A stretch of DNA of 42,241 nt, from assembly GCA_021201815.1 (NCBI GenBank), contig JAJQEC010000127.1:30456-72696 (forward strand), written 5' to 3'. Shown piece after piece: positions 32,215 to 41,600 of this stretch (positions within the stretch are counted from its first letter, which is position 1; every line of letters starts with the position of its first letter). This stretch comes from Candidatus Azobacteroides sp. (GTDB taxonomy: Bacteria > Bacteroidota > Bacteroidia > Bacteroidales > WRGA01). Both the position numbers and the translations under genes were made by a program. The notes beneath the pieces were generated by a model. The model was not told the DNA's origin. It saw only the letters and a list, made by a program, of their open reading frames with translations, and searched no databases.

Positions 32215-33708
32215 TTATAACGTTACTCCGGTTTTGAAAATGGCAATTTCACGATAATTCTTTTTTTCATTATTCACCCATTCACCATTAGCAACTTGGA
32301 TGATATACCGAATAAAATCCTCACCCAATTCTTCCATGATTTTATGTTCAAGCAGAACACCCGCATTAAAATCAATCCATCCCGGTTTATTTTCATATAA
32401 GGGAGTATTTGTCGATATTTTCATGGTAGGAACGAAACTGCCGAAAGGAGTTCCTCTTCCGGTAGTAAATAATACCATTTGACATCCGCTGGCTCCTAAG
32501 GCGGTCGCTGCTACCAGGTCATTACCGGGAGCACTTAAAAGATTCAATCCTTTCGTTTTAATACGGTCTCCATACATTAATACATCTCTCACCAGTGACT
32601 TTCCGCATTTCTGGGTACAACCCAATGATTTTTCTTCTAAGGTAGAAATGCCTCCGGCCTTGTTGCCAGGAGAAGGGTTTTCATATACCGGCTGTTCATT
32701 CTTTATAAAGTATTCTTTAAAATCATTGATCAGATGAACGGTTTTATCAAACATTTCCTCTGATTCACATCGGTTCATCAGGATCGTTTCCGCACCGAAC
32801 ATTTCCGGAACTTCTGTCAATACCGTAGTACCACCCTGAGCAACCAGAAAATCGGAAAATACCCCTAATAAAGGATTCGCCGTAATGCCGGAGAAGCCAT
32901 CCGATCCACCACATTTTAATCCGACCTTTAATTCGGAAAGCGATACTTCTTCCCGTTGGTCTTTAGAAGCAAGCTCATACAGTTCGTGCATGATTTTTAA
33001 CCCTTCGGCATGCTCGTCTTTTACCCGTTGAGCCACTAAAAATTTAACACGGCTTTCATCATATTCTCCAAGAAATTCCCTGAAATCATCCGGTTGGTTG
33101 TTTTCACATCCGAGTCCCATAACCAGCACGCCACCGGCATTCGGATGGAGAACAATATCCCGGAGTATTTTACGGGTGGTTTCATGGTCATCTCCTAATT
33201 GGGAACATCCGTAGTTATGTTTGAAAACTTCAATCGTGTCTACTCCTTTCAGTTCTCCGGTCTGTGCCCTGAACTCCCTGATAATACTTTCGGCCGGGCC
33301 ATTTACACAGCCTACCAGTGGTACAATCCATATTTCATTCCTGATTCCCACTTCTCCGTTTTTTCTTTTATACCCCCGGAATGTGAGATTGCGGGCCGGA
33401 ATATCCAGGGTTACAGTTTCCAGTTTATACTCATAATCCAGTAAACCCTCCAGATTTGTTTTTATATTTTTCTCGTTCACCAGGGTTCCTTCAGCGATTT
33501 TATCTCTTGCATGTCCGATGGCATACCCATATTTAATTACATTTTCCTGAGAAGAGAAGTCCTGTAGAGAAAACTTATGTCCTGCAGGAATTGTTTCTTT
33601 CAACGTAATTGATTTGCCATCAATATTCACCTGTTCACCGGCGGGCAGTTCATATATGGCAACTGCCACATTATCTGCCGGATTTATTTTTATATATTTT
33701 GCAGCCAT
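32215..33708 (-). CDS. uxaA: Altronate dehydratase (UxaA)
   Basis: This cytoplasmic enzyme dehydrates D-altronate to 2-keto-3-deoxygluconate. The 497-residue protein has an N-terminal SAF-type domain (about 1-95) and the UxaA catalytic part, with the conserved blocks HNYGCSQLGDDHE (164-176), GLGCENNQ (198-205), KCGGSDGFSG (265-274) and SLGCTQKCGKS (361-371). These Cys/His/Asp-rich blocks are expected to bind the metal. It is the last gene of the minus-strand arm, 80 bases after uxaB. A short hairpin sits at the end of uxaB. Length and motifs are standard, so the assignment is secure. Confidence 0.95.
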   Translation of the reverse strand: MAAKYIKINPADNVAVAIYELPAGEQVNIDGKSITLKETIPAGHKFSLQDFSSQENVIKYGYAIGHARDKIAEGTLVNEKNIKTNLEGLLDYEYKLETVTLDIPARNLTFRGYKRKNGEVGIRNEIWIVPLVGCVNGPAESIIREFRAQTGELKGVDTIEVFKHNYGCSQLGDDHETTRKILRDIVLHPNAGGVLVMGLGCENNQPDDFREFLGEYDESRVKFLVAQRVKDEHAEGLKIMHELYELASKDQREEVSLSELKVGLKCGGSDGFSGITANPLLGVFSDFLVAQGGTTVLTEVPEMFGAETILMNRCESEEMFDKTVHLINDFKEYFIKNEQPVYENPSPGNKAGGISTLEEKSLGCTQKCGKSLVRDVLMYGDRIKTKGLNLLSAPGNDLVAATALGASGCQMVLFTTGRGTPFGSFVPTMKISTNTPLYENKPGWIDFNAGVLLEHKIMEELGEDFIRYIIQVANGEWVNNEKKNYREIAIFKTGVTL

Positions 33709-33765: not shown

Positions 33766-33789
33766 GTACAGAACTCCCATAATCTGTAC
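33766..33789 (-). other. Small hairpin in the uxaB-uxaA gap
   Basis: GTACAGA at 33766-33772 pairs with TCTGTAC at 33783-33789, touching the uxaB stop codon. There is no T run, so it is more likely a transcript-processing or stability element than a terminator. Confidence 0.3.
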
Positions 33790-35240
33790 TAATTCTCCTG
33801 GTTTTTTATTATTTCTTCTGTCGTTTTCATCATTCCTTTTTCCTGGATTGATTTTATATCCTTAGCCAGTTCCTCTGTCAGGCCGGGGATTTTATTAAGG
33901 TCTTCTCCCCAGATATATTCGGAACCTAATACTCCTTGTGCTACTTTCTCCGGATCGTTTGTTTTCCACAACCTCTGGAGCAGGTCAATAATTTCTTTAT
34001 CATCATTGGGAGTAATAACTTCTTTACCCCGTTTACCTCCTTTATAATATACACAAATAGCAGCCAGTCCTAACACCAGACCAACCGGTAATTTACCCAT
34101 CCGTTCCAGGTACATCTTTAATCCGGGAAGATCTCTGGTCTTAAATTTCGGAAAAGAATTCAGCATAATGCTGGTAACAAAATGCTTTACAAAAGGATTC
34201 CGGAAACGATCCAGCACATCATCGGCAAACTGTTCCAGTTCTTCTTTTGGTAAATCCAGTGTAGGCAATAATTCTTCAAACATTACCTTTCTTACATATT
34301 GACCGACCACAGGATGTTCTACCGCTTCCCGGACCAGATCAAGGCCTGCCAGATAAGCAACCGGAGAGAGTACCGTATGAGGCCCGTTCAATAAAGTAAC
34401 CTTTCTTTCATGATAAGGCTTTTCACTAGGGACAAAAAGTACATTTAGTCCGGCTTTATCAGCAGGAAATTCTTTGGCTATACTCTCCGGAGCCTCAATC
34501 ACCCAAAGATGGAAGATTTCTCCTTTTACAACCAGTTTATCTTCTACACCGACTTTTGACAGGATTTCGTCAATATTATCCTTCGGATATCCCGGAACAA
34601 TCCGGTCCACTAATGTGCTGTATACACCGCAGGAATTTTCAAACCAGTTCTTAAATTCATCGCCCAGTTTCCAGTGTGCAATATATTGTTCGATACATTT
34701 TTTTAACTCCGTTCCGTTATGAAAGATAAGTTCACAGGGAAAAATAATAAATCCCTTTTTCTGATCTCCGTCAAATGTTTTGAAACGGTGATATAATAAT
34801 TGAGTTAATTTTCCGGGATAAGATCCGGCCGGCTTATCTTCAAACTTATCTTCTGCACGGAAAGTAATACCGGCTTCGGTAGTATTGGAAATAACAAAAC
34901 GCATATCCGGATTCTCAGCTAGTTTCATATATTCCTCAAACTGAGTATATGGATTCAGGCCACGACTGATGACATCGATCAGTTGAATGGTATCCGCTTT
35001 TTTACCTTTATCTATGCCCTGCAGGTTTAAATGATATAAACCATCCTGCTCATTTAGCATATCAACCATTCCGGATTCGATCGGTTGAACTACCACTACG
35101 CTACTGTTGAAGTTGGCTTTTTCATTCATGTTGAAAATGATCCAGTCTACAAATGCTCTTAAGAAGTTCCCTTCTCCGAATTGAATCACACGTTCCGGAT
35201 ATCTTTTTGCCTGAACGCTGTCCCTGTTTAGTTTTTCCAT
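33789..35240 (-). CDS. uxaB: Tagaturonate reductase (altronate oxidoreductase, UxaB)
   Basis: This enzyme reduces tagaturonate to altronate with NADH. The 483-residue protein belongs to the mannitol dehydrogenase family. The N-terminal nucleotide-binding motif is VIQFGEGNFLRAFVDW (about 18-33). The C-terminal domain carries the family's catalytic lysine block KVTLLNGPHTVLSPVAYLAG. It lies 87 bases after the lacI-type gene and 80 bases before uxaA, in one minus-strand operon. A reductase specific for fructuronate (UxuB) is in the same family, but the neighbouring uxaA rather than uxuA supports UxaB. Confidence 0.93.
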   Translation of the reverse strand: MEKLNRDSVQAKRYPERVIQFGEGNFLRAFVDWIIFNMNEKANFNSSVVVVQPIESGMVDMLNEQDGLYHLNLQGIDKGKKADTIQLIDVISRGLNPYTQFEEYMKLAENPDMRFVISNTTEAGITFRAEDKFEDKPAGSYPGKLTQLLYHRFKTFDGDQKKGFIIFPCELIFHNGTELKKCIEQYIAHWKLGDEFKNWFENSCGVYSTLVDRIVPGYPKDNIDEILSKVGVEDKLVVKGEIFHLWVIEAPESIAKEFPADKAGLNVLFVPSEKPYHERKVTLLNGPHTVLSPVAYLAGLDLVREAVEHPVVGQYVRKVMFEELLPTLDLPKEELEQFADDVLDRFRNPFVKHFVTSIMLNSFPKFKTRDLPGLKMYLERMGKLPVGLVLGLAAICVYYKGGKRGKEVITPNDDKEIIDLLQRLWKTNDPEKVAQGVLGSEYIWGEDLNKIPGLTEELAKDIKSIQEKGMMKTTEEIIKNQEN

Positions 35241-35327: not shown

Positions 35328-36401
35328 TTAGTCTAATTCCGGATTAAAGAAAAAGTCGATATTTTCTTTTGTCAGGATATCCATCGGCATGAAATTTTCT
35401 TTCTTGACCGGTTGTTTCAGTACGAAATGTTTTACCAATGCCTTTATGGCAATATATCCCTGCCTTTCCGGTCGTTGTCCGATCAGGTAATGAATAACTC
35501 CCTGTTTCAAGCAGGTTACGTTTCTATCCAGTAAGTCATATCCCACAAGAGAAATATGCCGCATATTCCGTTTCTTTATATATTCACCTATGATATACGC
35601 ACGGGAATTGAATATGACTGCTGCATTTGCTTTTGGATGTTGCCGGAAAAAATGATCCAATATTTCATCACATGCCTTTTCATCCGATGCATTTAGTTGT
35701 ACTTCATGGACAGTAAAATCAGAAGGATGGGTTTTCAGGTAAGAAAGGAAGCCTAATTCTCTCAGACTTGTCTGGTTGGAGGGACTTTGAGCTTGCCTCA
35801 TCATCCTGAATAATATTATTTCTTCTTTATTACAAATGTTTTCAGTCAATAATTTTGCTGCCAGATACCCACTTTGATAAGAATTTTGTCCTAAATAAGT
35901 AAGGGGATTCGTATCGGCAAGGGTAGAATCCAGAAAAACATAAGGAATTTCATCTTTCTCCAGGGTTCGGATAAATTTTAGTGTAATTTCTTTAAATGTC
36001 GGGACCAGAAGAACTGCATCCGGTTTTATTGCCGGAAGTTCATTAATAACATGCTGGAATGAAGTTTCCTCAAATTGGTCGAAATAATGCATCTGAATGG
36101 TGATATTCCAGTCTCCGAATTCTTCTGCTGCCTGGGCAATTCCGGTTTCTACCGATTCAAAATATTCTCCTTTTTCGTAACTGGGAAGAACACAGATAAA
36201 AGTATATGCCTTTTTAGAAGCAAGTGTACTGGCAAAAACATTGGGATGATAATCGATTTCTTTTAAAATTTCCATAATTTTTGCCCGGCTTTTTTCCGAT
36301 ACTTCTCCTCTATTATGCAAAACCCGGTCCACCGTGCCGGCTGATACGCCCGCTAGTTTTGCAATGTCTTTTATTCTGTATTTTTTAGGTAGCTCTTTCA
36401 C
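35328..36401 (-). CDS. LacI-family transcriptional regulator of the uronate cluster
   Basis: This 357-residue protein has an N-terminal LacI helix-turn-helix (about 8-65), reading IKDIAKLAGVSAGTVDRVLH, with a hinge near VFASTLASKK, followed by a periplasmic-binding-protein-like sensor domain (from about 68). It is the first gene of the minus-strand arm and divergent from uxaC, so it most likely controls both arms in response to a uronate or pathway intermediate. Two near-identical 18-bp operator-like sites lie in the shared promoter region, one in its own leader, which suggests autoregulation. The effector is inferred, not shown. Confidence 0.9.
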   Translation of the reverse strand: MKELPKKYRIKDIAKLAGVSAGTVDRVLHNRGEVSEKSRAKIMEILKEIDYHPNVFASTLASKKAYTFICVLPSYEKGEYFESVETGIAQAAEEFGDWNITIQMHYFDQFEETSFQHVINELPAIKPDAVLLVPTFKEITLKFIRTLEKDEIPYVFLDSTLADTNPLTYLGQNSYQSGYLAAKLLTENICNKEEIILFRMMRQAQSPSNQTSLRELGFLSYLKTHPSDFTVHEVQLNASDEKACDEILDHFFRQHPKANAAVIFNSRAYIIGEYIKKRNMRHISLVGYDLLDRNVTCLKQGVIHYLIGQRPERQGYIAIKALVKHFVLKQPVKKENFMPMDILTKENIDFFFNPELD

Positions 36402-36432
36402 CGTATTATTAAAAATGTGTATTAAATTATAA

Positions 36433-36450
36433 TTTGTGGTCGCACACGAA
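36433..36450. promoter_or_regulatory. LacI-type operator 1
   Basis: TTTGTGGTCGCACACGAA, read on the minus strand, matches operator 2 at about 15 of 18 positions, including an 11-base identical core TTCGTGTGCGA. It lies just inside the leader of the lacI-type gene, where binding would block its transcription. Confidence 0.65.
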
Positions 36451-36474
36451 TAATAAATCTAAATTTTTTTGCTA

Positions 36475-36482
36475 CAAATATA
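36475..36482 (-). promoter_or_regulatory. -7 promoter element for the minus-strand arm
   Basis: On the minus strand this reads TATATTTG, an exact match to TAnnTTTG. A CTTG on the same strand (36500-36503) could be the upstream half. Transcription would run toward the lacI-type gene, uxaB and uxaA, through operator 1. Confidence 0.5.
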
Positions 36483-36486
36483 GAAA

Positions 36487-36494
36487 TATTTTTG
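36487..36494 (+). promoter_or_regulatory. -7 promoter element for the uxaC arm
   Basis: TATTTTTG matches TAnnTTTG exactly, and a TTTG lies upstream at 36468-36471 (spacing 15, shorter than usual). Transcription would begin a few bases downstream and run through operator 2, leaving a leader of about 230 bases before uxaC. Confidence 0.45.
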
Positions 36495-36516
36495 TATTTC
36501 AAGAACAATTAGTATC

Positions 36517-36534
36517 TTCGTGTGCGAACACGAA
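36517..36534. promoter_or_regulatory. LacI-type operator 2
   Basis: TTCGTGTGCGAACACGAA is an almost perfect palindrome (arms TTCGTGT/ACACGAA around GCGA), with a central CG as in many LacI-family operators. It lies just downstream of the uxaC -7 element. Its centre is 84 bp from that of operator 1, close to eight helical turns. Confidence 0.7.
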
Positions 36535-36624
36535 TGGGTGTTCCGGGATGTATATATGCTGTTTAATTTATTGTAATTTAAATAATTATATTTTGTTTCC
36601 TTATTAAAAATAAATTGTAAGCAG

Positions 36625-36711
36625 ATGCATTTTTATGAAAAAATAATGTTTTTTTCCGGATATTTAAAGACAAAAACAGTCTTTTTTCCGGAATTCCGGA
36701 GGAATAAATAA
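36625..36711 (+). CDS. Possible 28-residue leader peptide upstream of uxaC
   Basis: An ATG at 36625 opens a 28-codon frame (MHFYEKIMFFSGYLKTKTVF and on) ending 20 bases before uxaC. It overlaps a small stem AAAGAC/GTCTTT (36666-36671 with 36679-36684) followed by T residues and the palindrome TCCGGAATTCCGGA (36687-36700). It could be a leader peptide tied to attenuation, but it is short and may be chance. Confidence 0.2.
   Translation: MHFYEKIMFFSGYLKTKTVFFPEFRRNK
36687..36700. promoter_or_regulatory. 14-bp perfect palindrome in the uxaC leader
   Basis: TCCGGAATTCCGGA is a perfect inverted repeat 31 bases before the uxaC start. It does not resemble the LacI-type operators nearby. It could be a second regulator's site or an RNA stem close to the ribosome-binding region. 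Confidence 0.35.
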
Positions 36712-36731
36712 TTAATTTAATATACCCTTTT

Positions 36732-38138
36732 ATGAAAAAGTTTTTGGACAAAGATTTTTTACTGGAAACAGAGACCTCTAAAAAATTGTATCATGAGCAT
36801 GCGGCAAAAATGCCTATTATTGATTATCACTGTCATTTAAATCCGGAGTTTATTGCCAAAGACCGCAAATTTGAAAATTTAGGCCAGATTTGGCTGGAGG
36901 GAGACCACTACAAATGGCGGGCCATGCGGACGAATGGTGTAGATGAGCGGTATTGTACAGGAAAGGATACTACCTGGTATGAAAAATATGAAAAATGGGC
37001 GGAAACAGTTCCTTATACCATGCGTAATCCATTATACCACTGGACTCATCTTGAATTAAAGACAGCATTTGGTGTAGAGAAAATTTTAAAACCGGAAACA
37101 GCCCGGGAGATTTATGATGAATGTACGGAAAAATTACAGACACCGGAGTTTTCAGCAAGAGGATTAATGAAAAAATATAATGTGCAGGTGGTTTGTACTA
37201 CAGATGATCCCATCGATTCTCTGGAATATCATATAGCCCTGAAAAATGAAGGTTTTGAAATTCAGGTATTGCCTACCTGGCGACCGGACAAAGCAATGGC
37301 TGTAGAAAACCCGGCTAATTTCCGTACCTATGTGGAGAAATTATCTGAGGTTTCCGGAGTTACCATCACTAAGTTTCAAGATTTGATTGAAGCGTTGCAG
37401 GTGCGGCATGATTTCTTTGCAAAAGTAGGATGCAAATTGTCTGACCATGGAATAGAAGAATTTTATGCTGAAGATTATACTCAGGCAGAAATTAATGCTA
37501 TATATAATAAGGTATATGGTGGAAATGACCTGACCAAAAAGGAAATCCTTAAATTTAAATCCGCTATGATGGTGGAATTTGCAATTATGGACCATGCAAA
37601 AGGCTGGACACAACAATTCCATTATGGCGCTATCCGTGACAATAATACCCGCTTGTTTAATCAACTGGGACCGGATACCGGATTTGACTCTATCGGTGAC
37701 TTTACGGTAGCCAAAAAGATGTCTAAATTCCTAAATCGGCTGGATACGGAAAATAAATTGGCAAAGACTATTCTATATAATCTGAATCCCCGTGATAATG
37801 ATTTAATCGCTACCATGATCGGTAATTTCCAGGATGGTTCGGTTGCCGGCAAAATGCAGTTCGGCTCCGGATGGTGGTTTCTGGATCAGAAGCCCGGGAT
37901 GGAAGCGCAAATGAATTCATTATCCGTACTTGGATTATTAAGCCGCTTTGTCGGAATGTTAACGGATTCCCGCAGTTTCTTATCTTATCCCCGTCATGAG
38001 TATTTCCGTAGAATTCTCTGTAACCTGATCGGAAAAGATGTCGAAAGCGGACAGTTGCCGGAAAGTGAAATCGGATTTTTAGGAAAAATGGTGGAAAATA
38101 TTTCTTATAATAACGCAAAGAATTTCTTTAATTTTTAA
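36732..38138 (+). CDS. uxaC: Uronate isomerase (UxaC)
   Basis: This cytoplasmic enzyme converts galacturonate to tagaturonate (and glucuronate to fructuronate). The 468-residue protein belongs to the amidohydrolase-related UxaC family: IIDYHCHLNPEFIA carries the metal-site histidines His33 and His35, VVCTTDDPIDSLEYH is the typical central block, and QFHYGAIRDNN and WWFLDQKPGME are conserved near the active site. Length is normal. It is the first gene of the plus-strand arm (kdgK, kdgA, exuT follow), with a 174-base gap to kdgK that contains possible additional -7 elements. Confidence 0.97.
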   Translation: MKKFLDKDFLLETETSKKLYHEHAAKMPIIDYHCHLNPEFIAKDRKFENLGQIWLEGDHYKWRAMRTNGVDERYCTGKDTTWYEKYEKWAETVPYTMRNPLYHWTHLELKTAFGVEKILKPETAREIYDECTEKLQTPEFSARGLMKKYNVQVVCTTDDPIDSLEYHIALKNEGFEIQVLPTWRPDKAMAVENPANFRTYVEKLSEVSGVTITKFQDLIEALQVRHDFFAKVGCKLSDHGIEEFYAEDYTQAEINAIYNKVYGGNDLTKKEILKFKSAMMVEFAIMDHAKGWTQQFHYGAIRDNNTRLFNQLGPDTGFDSIGDFTVAKKMSKFLNRLDTENKLAKTILYNLNPRDNDLIATMIGNFQDGSVAGKMQFGSGWWFLDQKPGMEAQMNSLSVLGLLSRFVGMLTDSRSFLSYPRHEYFRRILCNLIGKDVESGQLPESEIGFLGKMVENISYNNAKNFFNF

Positions 38139-38312: not shown

Positions 38313-39338
38313 ATGAGTAAGAAAATTGTAACGCTGGGAGAAATTATGCTCCGTTTATCAACTCCGGGAAATACTCGGTTTGTTCAATCGGATGTTTTTG
38401 ATGTTGTATATGGAGGAGGAGAAGCAAATGTCGCGGTTAGTTGTGCCAATTATGGCCACGATGCGTATTTTGTTACAAAATTGCCTGCACATGAAATCGG
38501 TCAGTCTGCCGTTAATGCGTTGCGCAAATATGGTGTAAAAACCGATTTTATTGCCCGTGGTGGTGACAGGGTAGGAATTTATTATCTGGAAACCGGAGCT
38601 TCCATGCGCCCCAGTAAAGTAATTTATGACCGAGCCAATTCTGCCATTGCGGAAGCTGATGTGGCTGATTTTGATTTTGATGCTATTATGCAGGGTGCGG
38701 ATTGGTTTCATTGGTCCGGGATTACACCTGCTATCTCCGATAAAGCGGCAGAATTGACAAAACTGGCTTGTGAAGCTGCAAAACGCCATGGAGTTACGGT
38801 TTCTGTCGATCTTAATTTCCGTAAAAAACTTTGGACAAAAGAAAAAGCGCAATCTATTATGCGCCCTTTAATGCAATATGTTGATGTGTGTATCGGAAAT
38901 GAAGAAGATGCCGAACTTTGCCTGGGCTTTAAGCCGGATGCGGATGTAGAAGCCGGACATACCGATGCGGAAGGATACAAAGGTATTTTTATGCAAATGG
39001 CGGAAGAGTTTGATTTCAAATATGTCATTTCTACTTTGCGGGAATCGTTTTCTGCAACTCATAACGGTTGGAAAGCAATGATTTATGATGGAAAAGAATT
39101 TTACACATCAAAAAGATATGATATTAATCCGATTATAGACCGGGTAGGAGGAGGAGACTCTTTTTCCGGTGGGATTATTCATGGACTACTAACTAAACCG
39201 AATCAGGGAGAAGCCTTGGAGTTCGCAGTAGCAGCTTCGGCATTGAAACATACCATCAATGGTGATTTCAATCTGGTATCTGTGGAAGAAGTAGAAGCAC
39301 TTGCCGGTGGCGATGCCAGTGGAAGAGTGCAAAGATAA
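38313..39338 (+). CDS. kdgK: 2-keto-3-deoxygluconate kinase (KdgK, PfkB family)
   Basis: This enzyme phosphorylates KDG to KDPG with ATP. The 341-residue PfkB-family protein has the N-terminal sugar-binding motif DVVYGGGEANVAVSCANYG and the C-terminal ATP/anion-hole motif DRVGGGDSFSGG, with the catalytic base Asp282. These replace the more common DTxGAGD, a normal variant in Bacteroidota KdgK. The gene lies between uxaC and kdgA, which fixes the substrate over other PfkB sugars. Confidence 0.93.
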   Translation: MSKKIVTLGEIMLRLSTPGNTRFVQSDVFDVVYGGGEANVAVSCANYGHDAYFVTKLPAHEIGQSAVNALRKYGVKTDFIARGGDRVGIYYLETGASMRPSKVIYDRANSAIAEADVADFDFDAIMQGADWFHWSGITPAISDKAAELTKLACEAAKRHGVTVSVDLNFRKKLWTKEKAQSIMRPLMQYVDVCIGNEEDAELCLGFKPDADVEAGHTDAEGYKGIFMQMAEEFDFKYVISTLRESFSATHNGWKAMIYDGKEFYTSKRYDINPIIDRVGGGDSFSGGIIHGLLTKPNQGEALEFAVAASALKHTINGDFNLVSVEEVEALAGGDASGRVQR

Positions 39339-39383: not shown

Positions 39384-40049
39384 ATGCGTTTTAATAAAAT
39401 ACAAGTATTGACAGCCATGGCAGAAACAGGAATGGTTCCTGTTTTTTACCATAAAGATACAGAAGTAGCGAAAAAGGTATTGAAAGCCTGTTATGAAGGA
39501 GGAGTAAGGGCATTTGAATTTACCAATCGGGGCGATTTCGCACAGGAAGTATTCGGAGAATTAGTAAAATTCGCAGCAAAAGAATGTCCGGAAATGATAA
39601 TGGGCATCGGATCTATTGTGGATCCTGCTACTGCTGCACTGTATATTCAATTAGGTGCTAATTTCGTAGTCGGTCCGTTGTTTAATCCGGAGATTGCAAA
39701 AGTCTGCAATCGTCGTTTAATTCCTTATACCCCAGGATGTGCTACTGTTTCGGAAGTCGGATTTGCTCAGGAAATGGGTTGTGACCTCATAAAGATTTTT
39801 CCGGGTGACGTAACCGGGCCTGCTTTGGTGAAAGGATTGAAAGCTCCGATGCCCTGGTCACAATTAATGGTCACAGGAGGAGTGAAGCCGGAAGAAGAAA
39901 ACCTGAAAGGCTGGTTCGGTGCCGGAGTTACGTGTGTGGGAATGGGGTCGAACTTATTTCCTGCCGATTTAATAAAATCGGAAAATTGGGGTGGTATTAC
40001 GGAATTATGCAGGAATGCCTTAGATATAATCAAAAAAATAAAAAAGTAA
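39384..40049 (+). CDS. kdgA: 2-keto-3-deoxy-6-phosphogluconate aldolase (KdgA/Eda)
   Basis: This aldolase splits KDPG into pyruvate and glyceraldehyde-3-phosphate, the last step of the pathway. The 221-residue protein is a class I aldolase. The Schiff-base lysine is Lys137 in DLIKIFPGD, the conserved catalytic Glu is Glu45 in AFEFTNRG, and the phosphate-binding end includes [11 protein letters not shown]. The same fold also includes 4-hydroxy-2-oxoglutarate aldolases, but the neighbours support KDPG. It follows kdgK by 45 bases and precedes exuT by only 3. Confidence 0.94.
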
Positions 40050-40052
40050 TGT

Positions 40053-41600
40053 ATGAGTAATCTTGGAAAAACACAATCGAAAATGACAAAGTACAGATGG
40101 GCTATCTGTAGCATGTTATTTTTCGCAACCACAATCAATTATCTCGACCGTCAGGTATTGTCCCTGACCTGGAGTGATTTTATTGCTCCCGAATTCCATT
40201 GGACCAACAATGATTATGGGACTATTACCGCTCTCTTTTCCATTTTTTATGCCCTTAGTATGCTGTTTGCCGGTCGTTTTGTTGACTGGATGGACACCAA
40301 AAAAGGTTTCCTTTGGGCAATTGGGATATGGTCTTTCGGAGCCTGTTTGCACGCATTCTGCGGAATTGCTACTTCCGGAATTACAACCGGCAACTGGTTT
40401 GTAGGCTTTGAAGGAGCAAAAGATGCAATTGCTACCGTAAGTGACATCGGATTTGTAATAAATGTAAGTGTTGCCCTATTTATTTTTGCCCGTTTTGTGT
40501 TGGCTCTTGGAGAAGCCGGTAACTTCCCGGCTGCGATAAAAGCCACTGCAGAATACTTTCCGAAAAAGGACCGCGCTTTTGCAACCAGTATTTTCAACGC
40601 CGGAGCTACTGTAGGTGCATTAGCTGCTCCCATTTCTATTCCTTTTATTGCAAAAGCATGGGGTTGGGAAATGGCCTTTATTATTATCGGAGCTCTTGGC
40701 TTCGTCTGGATGGGATTCTGGGTATTTGTATATAGTAAACCCGAAAAAAGCAAAAATGTAAATGCGGCTGAATTAGCCTATATTCAACAAGATAAAGATT
40801 CGCATGACCAGACAGAAGAAGCCGTAGAGGCAGGACAAAGAAAAAAAATATCTTTTAAGGATTGTTTTAAATATAAACAGACCTGGGCGTTTGCCATCGG
40901 AAAATTTATGACAGATGGAGTCTGGTGGTTTTTCTTATTCTGGGCACTGGCCTATCTCAAGTCCGTATATGGAATGAGTTCTACGGAGGCCGCTCTCCCG
41001 TTATTTGTTCTTTATATGATTACTTTATTATCTATCATCGGAGGATGGTTGCCTTCGTATTTTGTAGAAAAGAAAGGAATGAATCCTTATGCCGGAAGAA
41101 TGAGAGCAATGCTAATCTTTGCTTTCTTCCCTCTCTTGGCTCTTCTGGCTCAGCCTTTGGGTGGATATTCCTACTGGATTCCGGTGATTATCATCGGTAT
41201 TGCCGGAGCAGCACATCAGGCATGGTCTGCAAATATCTTTTCTACCGTCGGAGATATGTTCCCTAAATCGGCCATTGCTACGATTACGGGAATTGGCGGA
41301 ATGGCAGGAGGTGTCGGATCGTTCCTGATCAATAAAAGTTCAGGTGCATTATTTGATTATACCCACCTGCACTGGACAACCATTGACGGAGTTCCTCTGC
41401 TCGAAAAATTCCCTCAGTATATCAATGAAAGAATGCCGGAAAATTTCCTGGAAGGTTTAAGGGCTACAGGGGCGGAAGTCATTGATGGAATCAACAGTGG
41501 CTATATGATTATTTTCTCCGTGTGTGCAGTGGCTTACCTTATTGGCTGGGTAATAATGAAAACGCTGGTGCCTAAATATAAACCGATTGTGTTAGAATAA
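40053..41600 (+). CDS. exuT: Hexuronate transporter, MFS family (ExuT-like)
   Basis: This inner-membrane transporter is expected to bring galacturonate or glucuronate into the cytoplasm with protons. The 515-residue protein has the fold of the major facilitator superfamily anion:cation symporters, with the N-terminal signature TINYLDRQVLSLTW and about 12 membrane segments, for example VALFIFARFVLALGEAGNFP. A longer loop between early segments (GIATSGITTGNWFVGFEGAK) is typical of the Bacteroidota ExuT group. It starts 3 bases after kdgA, so they are cotranslated. A clear terminator follows. Confidence 0.9.
   Translation: MSNLGKTQSKMTKYRWAICSMLFFATTINYLDRQVLSLTWSDFIAPEFHWTNNDYGTITALFSIFYALSMLFAGRFVDWMDTKKGFLWAIGIWSFGACLHAFCGIATSGITTGNWFVGFEGAKDAIATVSDIGFVINVSVALFIFARFVLALGEAGNFPAAIKATAEYFPKKDRAFATSIFNAGATVGALAAPISIPFIAKAWGWEMAFIIIGALGFVWMGFWVFVYSKPEKSKNVNAAELAYIQQDKDSHDQTEEAVEAGQRKKISFKDCFKYKQTWAFAIGKFMTDGVWWFFLFWALAYLKSVYGMSSTEAALPLFVLYMITLLSIIGGWLPSYFVEKKGMNPYAGRMRAMLIFAFFPLLALLAQPLGGYSYWIPVIIIGIAGAAHQAWSANIFSTVGDMFPKSAIATITGIGGMAGGVGSFLINKSSGALFDYTHLHWTTIDGVPLLEKFPQYINERMPENFLEGLRATGAEVIDGINSGYMIIFSVCAVAYLIGWVIMKTLVPKYKPIVLE

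Follow-up and report, generated by a model that had tools for sequence, protein, structure and literature searches.

A divergent uronate locus and its regulator

The window, by which we mean the whole 42,241-nucleotide stretch of DNA that was analysed, lies on contig 99 of a genome of 4.22 Mb in 151 contigs. It contains two gene sets transcribed away from each other (Table 1). A LacI-family regulator, uxaB and a uxaA-like gene are read leftward from the minus strand, and uxaC, a kdgK-like gene, kdgA and an MFS transporter rightward from the plus strand; combined, the two sets constitute the galacturonate-to-KDPG route. The locus is a conserved Bacteroidales divergon (uxaC and following genes facing a LacI-family regulator and uxaB), an ordinary kind of bacterial switch, and the named relatives of the regulator are nearly all from Bacteroidales (Parabacteroides, Bacteroides, Massilibacteroides).

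Table 1. Genes, predicted operators and promoter elements of the locus (window coordinates)
Feature	Position	Strand	Details
uxaA-like altronate dehydratase	32215..33708	-	GD_AH domains; named from context
uxaB, tagaturonate reductase	33789..35240	-	NF002969, 655 bits (cut-off 359)
LacI-family regulator (UxaR-like)	35328..36401	-	GTG start; 357 aa; N-terminal HTH and periplasmic-binding-protein core
Left operator (predicted), TTTGTGGTCGCACACGAA	36433..36450	+	24.1 bits; 6/9 palindromic pairs; centre 36441.5
-7 of the regulator-uxaB-uxaA promoter, TATATTTG	36475..36482	-	exact; conserved
-33 of the uxaC promoter, TTTG	36491..36494	+	18 bp from the -7; contained in TATTTTTG
Possible partial -33 of the minus promoter, TTG	36500..36502	-	17 bp from the minus -7; read from sequence, inferred
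-7 of the uxaC promoter, TATCTTCG	36513..36520	+	joined to the right operator in a register shared by 21 loci
Right operator (predicted), plus strand TTCGTGTGCGAACACGAA, minus strand TTCGTGTTCGCACACGAA	36517..36534	-	29.4 bits; 8/9 palindromic pairs; centre 36525.5
uxaC, glucuronate/galacturonate isomerase	36732..38138	+	NF002794, 666 bits
kdgK-like PfkB sugar kinase (KDG-kinase-like)	38313..39338	+	profile matches
kdgA, KDPG/KHG aldolase	39384..40049	+	NF005499
MFS transporter, hexuronate-transporter-like	40053..41600	+	profile matches

The LacI-family gene that the first-pass annotation had placed beside the operators is indeed there, its product scoring above cut-off for the LacI helix-turn-helix domain (PF00356, 63.4 bits) and for PF13407 (126.8 bits). 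The AlphaFold2 model of the protein (pLDDT 85.8) matches structure 3gbv best (Z 36.0, rmsd 2.0, 287 residues). Of its 357 residues, the core fold takes in those up to 352 and leaves five at the C-terminus, the last three of which (355-357) are modelled with low confidence; in the 45 regulator homologues, a PIDI..EN motif is likewise followed shortly by the C-terminus. We looked for a C-terminal tetramerisation helix of LacI type after the regulator core and found none. Because the chain ends just past the core fold, the regulator appears to be without such a helix, an absence read from the chain end, with LacI itself not among the 50 structure matches listed.

In a tree of the 45 regulators, the window's protein falls into a well-supported clade of five (95/86) that includes those of the Bacteroides-type loci L019, L025 and L100, all of which sit in the same layout of uxaC opposite regulator and uxaB. 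Since it groups with Bacteroides regulators of identical uxaC/uxaB layout, we call it UxaR-like, a provisional name given by clade and gene layout. UxaR (BT0824) and KdgR (BT0487) of B. thetaiotaomicron are LacI-family proteins predicted to regulate glucuronate and galacturonate use (PMC3878776), and Bacteroides UxaR, UxuR and KdgR form one branch (PMC4052901). The window resembles the predicted BT0824 regulon in regulator family and in glucuronate/galacturonate use (PMC3878776); unlike the window with its two sites, however, L019, L025 and L100 show one recognisable site each. The window's genome also encodes a paralogous regulator (L041, contig 34; 40% identical) with an upstream palindrome of its own, AGTGTGCACGCACACATT, distinct from the window motif.

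Two operator-like sites and interleaved promoters

The intergenic region carries twin 18-bp sites whose centres are exactly 84 bp apart and which have in common, in inverted orientation, the 11-mer TCGCACACGAA (36440-36450 and 36517-36527), as the first-pass annotation had described. The left site matches the right one at 16 of 18 positions and is the weaker of the two (Table 1; the PWM maximum is 30.4 bits). Both have the form expected of LacI-family operators, which are mostly even palindromes with a central CG (PMC4052901). The match is not due to chance. Of 2,000 dinucleotide shuffles of the intergenic sequence, one contained an 11-bp inverted repeat as GC-rich as that of the window, and 405 contained one of any composition; elsewhere in the 4.22-Mb genome no match has fewer than three mismatches; and relatives carry sites of this form at the equivalent promoter position. 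The genome search, which had been proposed together with the sites, was done by pattern matching only; as to further regulon members, it returned nothing beyond three-mismatch background, and with a shorter pattern the one-mismatch matches stayed at about the level of a reversed control.

Bacteroides promoters carry TAnnTTTG at -7 and TTTG near -33 (PMC7366714). As one would expect in Bacteroidota, scanning for sigma-70 promoters gave nothing above chance level, whereas elements of the Bacteroides (sigma-ABfr) type are present on both strands: the minus -7 is exact, and the plus -7, TATCTTCG, departs from the consensus at one position of the TTTG and has a TTTG 18 bp upstream. The assignment of the latter comes from an alignment, by core, of the right sites of 28 twin- and single-site loci. 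TAnnTT(T/C)G begins exactly four bases ahead of the 18-bp operator in 21 of these, and 19 of the 21 also have a TTTG at a distance of 18-21 bp upstream from the -7. The fused loci comprise 14 of the 15 uxaC neighbours, three kdgK loci and four others; the lone exception among the uxaC neighbours, L089, is a long branch, and the seven twin loci outside the pattern belong to other paralogue groups. Given this 21-locus register, we take the uxaC promoter of the window to consist of the TTTG listed in Table 1, the 18-bp spacer and TATCTTCG.

The final four bases of the uxaC -7 are the initial four of the right operator, so that the operator covers the uxaC promoter and predicted start. With start sites placed by the -7 consensus near 36524 for uxaC and near 36471 for the regulator, it extends from about -7 to +11 relative to uxaC, which is the classic blocking position, whereas the left operator would occupy about +22 to +39 of the regulator transcript, centred at about +30. 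In the uxaC divergons the four bases shared by operator and -7 (TTCG or TTTG) entail a trade-off, as they encode both promoter strength and repression.

According to the first-pass annotation, two exact -7 elements on opposite strands lie between the sites. Both TAnnTTTG strings exist, and chance is an unlikely explanation, since shuffling the 67 bp brings the two together in only 0.8% of cases. Their roles differ, however. The minus string TATATTTG (36482-36475) is conserved as a -7, with CAAATATA-type strings found across loci at 40.5-55.5 bp from the right operator centre, but the plus string TATTTTTG (36487-36494) is not, and belongs to the -33 region; the actual plus -7, TATCTTCG, overlaps the right operator and so lies outside the interval. 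The two promoters would overlap, because the possible minus -33 interleaves with the plus -33.

Some further features of these regions were recorded. The inferred uxaC 5' leader (36524-36731, plus strand) is about 200 nt long, contains one TCCGGAATTCCGG palindrome and two copies of TTTTTTCCGGA (at 36650 and 36682), and forms a more stable predicted fold than its shuffles (z -3.0), with no Rfam match; that of the nearest relative is only about 45 nt long. An Rfam scan of 36300-36850 gave nothing above gathering score, and a miRNA-family match at 36432-36535 was rejected (28.5 bits, gathering score 139.7), probably reflecting the AT-rich inverted repeat. In three loci of one family (L046, L047 and L053), a related and probably KdgR-like regulator is divergent from kdgK-kdgA instead of uxaC; these loci show the same fusion of operator and -7 as the window, and two of them carry twin sites 82 bp apart.

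Probable repression of both arms by one local regulator

The sites, their conservation and the gene content support what the first-pass annotation had proposed in outline, a local LacI-family repressor acting through two predicted operators on back-to-back promoters that serve both galacturonate arms. We consider it very probable, judging from the sequence, that a single UxaR-type repressor uses the two sites such that each blocks its own promoter. In the absence of inducer, the right operator would be occupied by a repressor dimer that covers the uxaC -7 and start site and keeps RNA polymerase off the promoter of uxaC, kdgK, kdgA and the transporter. A second dimer would occupy the weaker left operator, some 30 bp inside the regulator-uxaB-uxaA transcript, where it would hinder or road-block polymerase and thereby reduce expression of these genes, including the regulator's own synthesis. 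A sugar acid of the pathway, as the presumed inducer, would release both dimers. For simple steric blocking, the left site is a long way downstream, and it may not act unaided; the leftward promoter may in addition be impeded by the right-site dimer, and the polymerases probably compete, because the promoters are back to back with interleaved -33 regions. If the dimers joined in a loop as well, this would reinforce the repression as an optional extra.

About 20% of LacI-family-regulated operons carry more than one site (PMC4052901). A parallel to the proposed division of labour is E. coli lac O3-O1, where LacI likewise has one operator at the promoter and another downstream of the regulator's own promoter, the downstream operator giving LacI autorepression by road-block (PMC3711431). 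Unlike at lac, the promoters of the window are back to back, and whereas LacI tetramerises via its C-terminal helix, the window regulator ends with the core fold. The locus provides a concrete pair of predicted operators, open to experimental test, for uronate use in one Bacteroidales lineage.

Conservation and spacing of the second operator

From the 84-bp spacing the first-pass annotation had predicted a repression loop that would shut both arms of the pathway. In such a loop, dimers at both sites would join across 84 bp, enclose both promoters and shut them together, as GalR does at gal. The geometry fits, since 84 bp are 8.0 turns at 10.5 bp per turn, and LacI has been observed to loop 95 bp (PMC3877293). 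A precedent is the E. coli gal OE-OI repressosome, where two operators also flank two promoters at a whole-turn spacing; GalR tetramerises via its core, without a tail, and loops 113 bp with HU (PMC4693257). A GalR-type contact through the core might also be made by the window regulator, which has no LacI-type tetramer tail. At gal, however, phasing and loop are experimentally demonstrated, whereas in the window's relatives neither the second site nor the spacing is conserved, and each operator is placed to repress its own promoter without a loop. We therefore regard the loop as unlikely.

As to the second site, the left operator scores at or near background in ten loci that retain the right one, among them the nearest relative, L039, with a regulator 63% identical to that of the window and the same gene layout. 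A degenerate left site, sought in these ten single-site loci, reached best scores of -9.2 to 3.5 bits, compared with about 13-30 bits for the sites of twin loci; the least clear cases are L055 (3.5 bits, equalled in 4 of 200 shuffles), L103 (10 of 200) and L052 (11 of 200). On the 45-regulator tree the twin/single state changes about ten times, and at least nine of these changes are forced by well-supported branches. Because it is absent from the nearest relative and nine other loci, the left operator appears to be dispensable.

As to spacing, twin sites are 84, 83, 83, 87, 84 and 77 bp apart in uxaC-type loci, 82, 82, 79, 76, 76, 76, 75, 72, 69, 67, 65 and 43 bp in relatives, and 42 to 82 bp in an unbiased scan of 393 genomes, giving an overall range of 42-87 bp. 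Family searches made to enlarge this sample added only one candidate uxaC-type locus (L108, spacing 83), because the families are small. Close relatives can differ by 4 bp (L060 with 76 and L080 with 72; L043 with 83 and L044 with 87). About three in ten of all spacings fall within 1 bp of a whole turn, and a Rayleigh test at 10.5 bp gave no significant phasing for the uxaC loci (p 0.32) or for one locus per family (p 0.72); a second one-per-family set gave p 0.09 with the short spacings included and p 0.80 for spacings above 60 bp only. Larger, non-independent sets gave p 0.08-0.12, and none of the periods tried gave a value below p 0.04, reached at 11.0 bp in the 393-genome scan. In the near clade, a change in one of the two offsets around the minus -7 is not balanced by the other (r = 0.58, n = 6), although the correlation over all 15 loci (r -0.46) weakens this point. 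With neither second operator nor helical phase conserved, comparison with relatives does not support a looping control region. That the second operator has repeatedly been lost or has drifted is also a warning not to infer a DNA loop from one whole-turn spacing. For LacI-family twin sites in general, spacing peaks are at 13, 22 and 32 bp (PMC4052901), unlike the 84 bp of the window.

In favour of a loop, the near clade keeps its spacing at 82, 82, 83, 83, 84, 84 and 87 bp, but common descent or promoter geometry would give a narrow range likewise. A loop confined to this clade, in which a tail-less LacI-family repressor closes 84 bp over interlocked divergent promoters while sister lineages dropped the second operator, seems to us very unlikely; if true, a loop would have been repeatedly gained and lost within one regulator family.

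It is also quite improbable that the right operator works alone, hindering both interleaved promoters, with the left site no more than a remnant, decaying or accidental: the left site is weaker and often lost, and the right operator is close upstream of the leftward promoter, but the left site keeps 16 of the 18 right-site positions without a rival in the genome, and left sites recur in several lineages.

Twin sites GTGTNCGNRCAC were found in other LacI-type loci of several families (L084, L086, L087 and L088, and at a second place in the L087 genome). Their spacing is a tight 42-44 bp, close to four turns, and these loci are a better place than the 84-bp pair to look for cooperative binding.
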